A DNA stretch of 64,000 bases from Paraniabella ginsengisoli (lineage in GTDB: Bacteria > Bacteroidota > Bacteroidia > Chitinophagales > Chitinophagaceae). The stretch is from the NCBI RefSeq assembly GCF_022513635.1, contig NZ_JAKWBL010000001.1, positions 434,001-498,000 on the forward strand, written 5' to 3'. The notes below the pieces were generated by a model. The model did no database searches and was not told the DNA's origin. It worked only from the letters and a program-made list of their open reading frames with translations. Positions 29,001 to 30,053 of this stretch are shown here, piece after piece. Position numbers and translations under genes: made by a program. Numbering within the stretch: the first letter of the stretch is position 1; each line of letters opens with the position of its first letter.

Positions 29001-30053
29001 ATGCAACAAACTTCTTCCATTCGTGATAACTGGGTGTTATTTATTCACCAACTGCAAGATGATATTTGTGCTGGTTTGGAACAGGAAGATGGCAAAGCAA
29101 AATTTATTGAAGATAAATGGGAGCGCGAAGGCGGAGGCGGTGGCAAAACCCGCGTTATCGCTAATGGAAATGTTTTTGAAAAGGGCGGTGTAAGCACTTC
29201 TGTGGTACATGGAGAGGTGACTGATACCATGCGTAAAGTGCTTAATCTTAATTCCCCCTCTTCCGGAGGGGGGTAAGGGGGAGGCTGGCGATCGATGGTT
29301 CGCAGCTGGATTGAGTTTGGTGATACATCCATACAATCCGTTTGTACCAACGGTTCATTGCAATTATAGGATGTTTGAGTTGTATGATGCTGAAGGAAAT
29401 ACAATAGACCGCTGGTTTGGCGGTGGAACAGATTTAACGCCCTATTATTTATTTGAAGAAGATGCTATTCAGTTTCATCAGACCTATAAAAATGTTTGTG
29501 ACGGATTCGATCCGTCTTTTTATCAGAAGTTCAAAAAAGTTTGTGATGATTACTTTGTAAATACACATCGTAATAATGAGAGACGTGGCATTGGCGGTAT
29601 TTTTTATGATCATAAAAGACCGTCGGGGTTCCCTGTACTTTCAGGGTCTAAAGCTCCCTCTCCTTTGGAGAGGGCAGGGGAGATGCCTTTTGGATGAATT
29701 TTGGAAAAGCGTGCGGTAATGCATTCTTGCCTGCATATCTTCCTATTGTTAGCAAAAGGAAAAGTGAAGTGTTTACCCCCGAACATAAATATTGGCAGGA
29801 GATAAGAAGAGGCCGTTATGTAGAATTTAATTTGGTACATGATAGAGGAACTATTTTTGGATTGAAAACAAACGGCAGAACCGAAAGTATTTTGATGAGC
29901 CTGCCGCCAACAGTAAGATTTGATTACAACTACAGCCCCATTCCCGCAAGTGAAGAAGATAAATTGTTGCAGGTTTGTTTGCACCCGCGCGACTGGATCA
30001 ATGAGAATAGTATATCAGAGGAAGATTGGGCTGTGCGAGTTAACAGATGTTGA
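29001..30053 (+). CDS. hemF: Oxygen-dependent coproporphyrinogen III oxidase HemF with two repeat-derived inserts (interrupted frame)
   Basis: Converts coproporphyrinogen III to protoporphyrinogen IX using O2. Family blocks are clear: [102 protein letters not shown] and [14 protein letters not shown]. Two stretches do not belong to the family: NSPSSGGG...KGEAG before DRWFAAG, and [13 protein letters not shown] after the FYDHKRPSG loop. Both are encoded by a palindromic mini-element found elsewhere between genes. Frame shifts fall in the G/C runs of these inserts (about 29270-29280 and 29677-29680), so I cannot tell whether the frame is really open through them. Confidence 0.87.
29252..29284. 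repeat. Palindromic mini-element inside hemF, copy 1
   Basis: TTCCCCCTCTTCCGGAGGGG with a further G-rich arm, the same layout as the intergenic copy at 27901. It replaces the expected short turn before DRWFAAG in HemF. Confidence 0.75.
29653..29685. repeat. Palindromic mini-element inside hemF, copy 2
   Basis: GCTCCCTCTCCTTTGGAGAG followed by GGCAGGGGAG; read in frame it gives [10 protein letters not shown] small upstream palindrome CCCTG-TACTTT-CAGGG at 29632-29647 seems to belong to the same insert. Confidence 0.8.

Follow-up and report, generated by a model that had tools for sequence, protein, structure and literature searches.

The two palindromes that interrupt hemF in Paraniabella ginsengisoli are, judged by sequence, members of the known PIT/TM family of triplex repeats, lodged here within a coding gene. 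We consider it probable that they represent the solo ends of a homing-type element that has triplex ends, lies in frame and apparently does not splice, and the full version of which would carry a DUF559 nuclease. The PIT/TM intrastrand triplex repeats were reportedly also described by Hoyne and Maher. Positions refer to the window, i.e. the whole stretch of 64,000 nt that was analysed, in which the relevant features are as follows:

27900..27936, + strand: intergenic copy upstream of hemE (model R1, 38.3 bits; triplex scan)
29001..29252, + strand: first coding piece of hemF (NCBIfam PRK05330 on ORF 29001-29276, E 2e-19)
29253..29286, + strand: hemF solo triplex-type palindrome 1 (34 nt, 3n+1 in the assembly; model R1, 42.0 bits)
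29287..29622, + strand: middle coding piece of hemF (NCBIfam PRK05330 on ORF 29311-29697, E 5.1e-43)
about 29623..29684, + strand: hemF solo triplex-type palindrome 2 (62-nt insert; model R1, 42.2 bits for 29652-29687)
29685..30053, + strand: last coding piece of hemF (NCBIfam PRK05330 on ORF 29694-30053, E 1.3e-40)

The coproporphyrinogen oxidase gene hemF is thus one gene in three fragments. An earlier note on this DNA had proposed that two related G/C palindromes lie within it, at points where HemF relatives have turns; both are real (inserts of 34 nt and about 62 nt), and both are located at short turns in the alignment. The latter derives from 24 HemF loci besides that of P. ginsengisoli, and includes only the seven that matched the motif, with site 1 readable in six and site 2 in seven. 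Palindrome 1 separates the N codon from those for GD within the turn preceding WFAAGL, from which it is absent in the six relatives, and its 7-nt mirror tail is perfect. Palindrome 2 has a hairpin core at 29652-29687, together with some 30 nt of additional 5′ sequence in which there is a further small palindrome, and it stands in place of the short loop preceding FWM, which is without the element in the seven relatives; its tail is imperfect, matching at 7 of 8 positions, and this counts against the overall interpretation given here. The peptide that had been read from this second copy is present in the upstream frame. A known RNA family in the hemF region was rejected, the search for one having returned a single chance-level row.

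In the window, a scan for hairpins with mirror tails (score ≥ 6) picked out exactly the two palindromes in hemF and the intergenic one, whereas 10 mononucleotide shuffles gave none. The intergenic relative that the earlier note had placed near 27901 is confirmed at 27900-27936. Its further copy at 49560 did not survive scrutiny: it is unmatched by model R1 and lacks a mirror tail, and was rejected as a family member. This hairpin adjoins the third copy of another palindromic family, with the core TCCGCCAGCTGGCGGA, that occurs at 31688-31711, 39436-39459 and 49539-49562. The window also contains longer imperfect repeats (families D5, D8 and D16) at 11113-11257, 24086-24143 and 54804-54879, possibly pieces of another dispersed element, and, between hemC and hemE (26644-27173), two small ORFs that we take to resemble an antitoxin and a ParE/RelE-type toxin.

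In the assembly, the reading frame of hemF shifts by one nucleotide at each of the two elements. The frames of hemC (at ~26405) and hemE (28110-28147) are broken too, away from any palindrome, and for this reason assembly indels are the likely cause of the frame change in hemF. As the assembly with these one-nucleotide offsets has broken frames in hemC and hemE as well, hemF is likely to be translated throughout, although the present assembly does not prove this and the broken frame counts against the overall interpretation; a working HemF protein would presumably be made.

The repeat family extends well beyond the window. A genome search for the nucleotide palindrome, as had been advocated in the earlier note, gave 44 sites for the strict pattern CCCTCTCCN{0,20}GGAGAGGG in the 4.53-Mb genome (five contigs), all with loops of 3-4 nt, against none for the reversed control. 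Model R1 yielded 86 rows at E ≤ 0.1, from which 76 distinct places were kept after leaving out nine second-strand rows and a weak place (C1:82506; E 0.054). Four of these 76 gave no perfect 5-bp hairpin; among the 72 measurable hairpins, the tail is perfect on the 3′ side in 44 and on the other side in none. The tail mirrors the purine arm: GGAGAGGGG is found with GGGGTGAGG, GGAAAGGGG with GGGGATAGG, and GGGAAGGGG with GGGGATGGG, and ends with arms other than GGAGAGGGG include those of the GGGGAAGG/GGATGGGG type. Such an arrangement is that of the purine-motif triplex, which requires mirror symmetry, with A or T facing A-T pairs. By its sequence, the repeat belongs among the purine-motif "intrastrand triplex" (PIT/TM) elements, having both the hairpin with a mirror tail that obeys the triad code and many dispersed genomic copies. 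Inside the cell, the repeat may form the triplex.

A dicodon score, which served as a rough screen, flagged copies as lying inside genes, and genes are named only where there is a Pfam match or a long open frame. On this basis, six copies in five genes leave the frame open, namely those in PurH, AroA, LeuS (twice), an alpha-2-macroglobulin-like gene and a DUF255 gene. The element is spanned by the Pfam AICARFT match in PurH and by the EPSP synthase match in AroA, and the Pfam match lies beside it in the alpha-2-macroglobulin-like and DUF255 genes. In RsmG and a RapZ-like gene, the frame is broken at the copy; by eye, broken copies may also be present in IspG- and MnmE-like genes, the IspG-like pieces being without Pfam confirmation. 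Among the 18 relatives listed for PurH, 15 show a short loop, for example LIAEFPKNDEVVFAIIKHTN, at the point where P. ginsengisoli has LIADLTPSPSPKERGEMSDEAVFAIIKHTN and is longer by a net 30 nt than a relative with LIAEFPKNDEVVFAIIKHTN; the congener G147 has two C/G-rich hairpins, and no nuclease, in the same loop. At the level of sequence, these copies are members of the family set in open frames, and the sites in PurH and LeuS are empty in relatives. Solo ends would probably contribute short peptides rich in Pro and Gly, of which LTPSPSPKERG is an example. The analogy that the earlier note drew with the in-frame palindromic elements of Rickettsia is therefore right in kind, since six copies in five genes keep the frame, although for hemF itself an open frame is not demonstrable from this assembly. 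The note had recognised neither the triplex motif nor the in-frame DUF559 unit that paired copies bound.

It is in LeuS that the full unit is seen in P. ginsengisoli. Two copies (C4:760377, − strand, and 760806, + strand) face outward round a DUF559 nuclease domain, the whole lying in one open frame, and the unit takes the place of about six codons of a loop. Within the genus, this loop is without the element in G157 and has an in-frame solo element in G151; no target duplication was seen in the comparison with relatives. On the 3′ side, the frame remains open for fewer than 100 codons beyond the domain, and, because a downstream frame break shortens it, LeuS of P. ginsengisoli is absent from the long-frame cases described below. 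The second DUF559 of P. ginsengisoli has a short hairpin variant on its left and a weaker hairpin on its right. In the LeuS of G123 (L084:1-3252), there are two DUF559 units at different sites in one frame, with hairpins on both sides of each. Inspection of the LeuS loop of congeners by eye (L257-L263) revealed other micro-repeats, in runs of the AATTCTC, AGATCTC or CATTCAG type. In-frame micro-repeats also occur in loops elsewhere, as NPFTIHHSPFT in hemC (window 26049-26081) and SNSQFTIHNSQFT in LeuS (L045).

The pairing of ends round the nuclease was examined in a sample of 158 DUF559 domains, 155 of them distinct: 75 from the family set (72 loci, comprising 2 from P. ginsengisoli, 30 loci and 40 further stretches, which are part of the family matches only) and 80 others from genome contigs, which are the top-ranking ones among 568 confirmed matches. 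Pyrimidine/purine hairpins of at least 6 bp within 220 nt of the domain were selected blind to their tails. Among the 155 domains, which represent strong matches, mainly from Bacteroidota, 130 have such a hairpin on the right, 128 on the left and 120 on both sides; by comparison, 3.1% of control segments taken 500-1630 nt from the domain contain one, per strand (n = 1096). The distance from hairpin to hairpin has a median of 464 nt (interquartile range 445-518, n = 120). Against the unit, 17 of the 155 domains are without a hairpin on either side, and 59 lie in short frames.

Since a palindrome reads identically on both strands, the orientation of the hairpins rests on their tails. The triad match is perfect on the outward side for 165 of 258 flank hairpins, and on the inward side for 10; when one hairpin is taken for each distinct purine arm (79), the corresponding values are 46 and 1. 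Moreover, tails match their own arms (mean 0.866) better than those of others in 1000 permutations among arms of equal length (78 arms; permuted mean 0.719, sd 0.012, maximum 0.760). When the linker is set from the G positions alone, an A in the arm is opposed by A or T in 394 of 479 cells, and a G in 143 of 1518. Tail identity is on average highest for the mirror (0.791), followed by the direct repeat (0.668) and the reverse complement (0.182). Related sequences are not independent, and these tail figures are consequently not exact probabilities. Taken at the level of sequence, the mirror tail covaries with its arm, and the ends are paired round the nuclease.

In 78 of the 155 domains, the frame is open for at least 100 codons beyond DUF559 on both sides, and 69 of these have both hairpins; the hosts with long frames include LeuS, MetH, MetG, AroC and RecG. 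According to Pfam, DUF559 lies in or between the domains of a host protein in 20 ORFs (19 of the 78, plus LeuS of P. ginsengisoli). The hosts in question are HsdR, AroC, MetG, MetH, adenine deaminase, CinA, methylmalonyl-CoA mutase fusions, GcpE/IspG, RecG, GH31, DegT, class I tRNA synthetase, UDP-GlcNAc 2-epimerase, MazG, poly(A) polymerase, UvrD, Lhr and M23 peptidase. That many units are in frame inside housekeeping enzymes suggests selfish DNA that is translated rather than cut out. A predicted model of AroC with its DUF559 has a mean pLDDT of 54.3, the nuclease being mostly above 80 and the flanking stretches mostly below 50; because the model as a whole is poor, it was not used for loop placement. 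The HsdR of a relative (L080:106-3318) has a GIY-YIG domain beside DUF559, perhaps a second in-frame nuclease insertion, and in the Lhr-like helicase of another (L100:1929-2123) near-tandem repeat copies read LTPSPSPVERGAKT, LTPSPSPVERGAKT and LTPSTSPVERGAKT.

The predicted model of the DUF559 nuclease has a pLDDT of 89.5. Its top match in Foldseek is 3hrl (NGO0050; 42% identity, E 6.6e-8), followed by the homing endonuclease I-Bth0305I (3r3p; E 1.5e-4 and 3.6e-4); Vsr (1vsr; E 0.022) ranks below two mitoribosome chains and PvuRts1I. E17, D45, E56, D58, H62 and D71 are invariant in 15 DUF559 sequences. The fold, as modelled, fits the EDxHD/Vsr-like family.

DUF559 is present in 76 of 147 genomes of the family to which P. 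ginsengisoli belongs, many times in very long frames. The strict hairpin occurs in 46 of these 76 genomes, compared with 13 of the 71 without DUF559 (Fisher p 1.5e-7), and 22 of the 24 genomes with at least five strict hairpins have the domain; G039 (30 copies) and G045 (14 copies) contain solo hairpins and no DUF559, which counts against the unit. Across the genomes, then, the sequence data indicate that solo hairpins co-occur with the nuclease. With regard to homing, the evidence seen consists of empty sites and of a phylogeny clustered by site: the nearest labelled DUF559 neighbour shares the insertion site in 43 of 61 cases (shuffled mean 12.3, maximum 21), a clustering that plain inheritance would fit as well as homing. 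Plasmids, too, carry the domain. Outside Bacteroidota, nine plasmid records (of 39 with a DUF559 match), from cyanobacteria, Deinococcus, Azospirillum and Photobacterium, each have one or more apparent triplex-type hairpins close to the domain, and by our count five have outward ones on both sides, with stems that can be as short as 5 bp; the DUF559 of Pseudanabaena galeata is embedded in frame and has nested double ends. On the cyanobacterial plasmids L299, L300, L302 and L303, DUF559 lies beside DUF1156 or BREX PglX-type genes, and in some cases beside VapC/PIN.

Several other explanations need to be weighed against a translated mobile unit with solo ends. For hemF alone, it could be argued that the gene is a true pseudogene, killed by the two insertions. 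Not only is the frame off by one at both copies, there is also no substitute: the earlier note would have abandoned its proposal had another intact hemF existed, and the genome search found no second or intact copy in P. ginsengisoli. Additionally, 14 of the 39 relatives searched gave no match to the HemF fragment, and the gene can therefore be dispensable in the group, making its loss possible. However, hemC and hemE are broken likewise without elements, and element copies in other genes preserve the frame, such that we regard the death of hemF as unlikely. A further possibility is that the embedded units get removed, either as inteins of an atypical kind or as self-splicing introns, as would befit a nuclease inserted into conserved enzymes; in PMC9403480, a cyanobacterial DUF559 gene, assigned to EDxHD, is treated in the section on inteins. 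Against this, Pfam (E ≤ 1e-5) detected no intein or Hint family in the 20 ORFs, and there was no Rfam intron match at the gathering score in 12 loci. Moreover, the unit has palindromic ends and takes the place of part of the target loop. We have rejected removal by splicing on the strength of these searches, and judge it highly improbable; protein splicing is presumably absent.

The hairpin, small size and high copy number of the repeats might also denote ordinary REP/MITE repeats that owe their spread to a RAYT-type (Y1) transposase. Nevertheless, the single Y1_Tnp gene detected in P. ginsengisoli has a different palindrome on both sides, and the 19-kb stretch round it contains no copy of the triplex family; mobilisation by a RAYT was accordingly discarded, and we attach almost no weight to it. 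The Y1_Tnp gene itself is frame-broken (L055:8992-9436; contig C4 near 674 kb), and the repeats at its sides (L055:8839-8900 and 9447-9502), which read GATCCGGGAGTT-GACTCCCGGC and then GAAGTCCTTCGGACTTCG, likely form a REP-transposase pair with it. Finally, unstable triplex repeats may attract recombination, with DUF559 and repeats merely gathering at tolerant loops and no mobile unit existing at all. Holder 2015 connects the motif with local instability, and saw no genes for mobility close to it in E. coli; two repeat-rich genomes are without DUF559, and unrelated micro-repeats populate the LeuS loop of congeners. Nonetheless, mere gathering is hard to reconcile with pairs at near-constant spacing, with tails outward on both sides, round the same domain in many unrelated genes, and we find it distinctly improbable.

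We therefore return to the translated mobile unit. The complete, presumably self-mobile form would be ~0.46 kb in length and consist of a triplex hairpin (tail outward), a DUF559 nuclease of the EDxHD/Vsr-like type, and a second triplex hairpin (tail outward). It would enter variable loops of housekeeping enzymes such that the frame stays open, and, being in frame and open with no splicing domain detected, is probably translated as an additional domain of the host enzyme. Its spread would be driven by the nuclease, in the manner of homing, and the solo ends would probably be mobilised in trans, or else persist after loss of the nuclease. A broader proposition is that this is a widespread class of element, in which DUF559 between outward triplex ends copies itself in frame into the loops of essential enzymes and is left unspliced, with the long-known PIT/TM repeats, which have so far lacked a mobiliser, as its solo ends and the triplex as an aid to end recognition; we rate the chances of this as slightly below even.

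If correct, a nuclease-bearing selfish element could occupy essential genes without known splicing, by being in frame and in tolerant loops, and this would account for the odd peptides of the LTPSPSPKERG type and for the DUF559 domains in annotated enzymes. The covariation is, further, evidence that natural sequences are subject to the pairing rule of the triplex. In a literature search for which most subscription journals were beyond reach, we found, among the records listed, no description of DUF559 combined with triplex ends, no paper with DUF559 in its title or abstract, and no in-frame endonuclease insertion in LeuS.

A number of known systems resemble the unit in part. The Rickettsia palindromic elements (PMC10969869 and PMC3733652, in the parts available) are likewise palindromes placed in frame in unrelated protein genes, but they are about 150 bp in size, as opposed to roughly 35-60 nt here, and the accessible portions of the same two papers mention neither a triplex architecture nor a nuclease-bearing parent. 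Similarly, the REP/RAYT repeats, as presented in the available sections of PMC3733652, are small, palindromic and present in many copies, whereas the Y1 transposase of P. ginsengisoli is tied to a different palindrome and is not flanked by the triplex family. The nuclease shares a similar fold (3r3p) with I-Bth0305I and the EDxHD enzymes (PMC3943268 and PMC9403480); these are described there with introns, whereas here no intron was found and the unit has triplex ends of its own. The ShiLan domain of phage methylases (PMC11855218) is alike in being inserted by homing, in leaving the frame of its host open and in showing no detectable splicing. It differs in that the HNH nuclease belongs to phages and lies out of frame, as opposed to being in frame and flanked by triplex hairpins; the term "inverted repeat" is absent from the ShiLan text (PMC11855218).

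The closest relationship is with PIT/TM itself. In the part of PMC4666352 that is accessible, these repeats have the same hairpin and purine mirror tail, a G/C-rich class II motif, many copies and loops that are less conserved than the stems. All 23 TM copies of E. coli MG1655 are intergenic, with no mobility genes near, and the TM forms a triplex in vitro, with none detected in vivo in the footprinting of Holder et al. (PMC4666352, same portion), a result that counts against a triplex in the cell. In contrast to those of E. coli, the repeats described here include in-frame copies in genes and pairs that bound a DUF559 nuclease, which would offer a candidate mobiliser for a family near which Holder et al. 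(PMC4666352, as available) found no mobility genes. Overall, the in-frame DUF559 unit bounded by paired PIT/TM members may deserve a class of its own.
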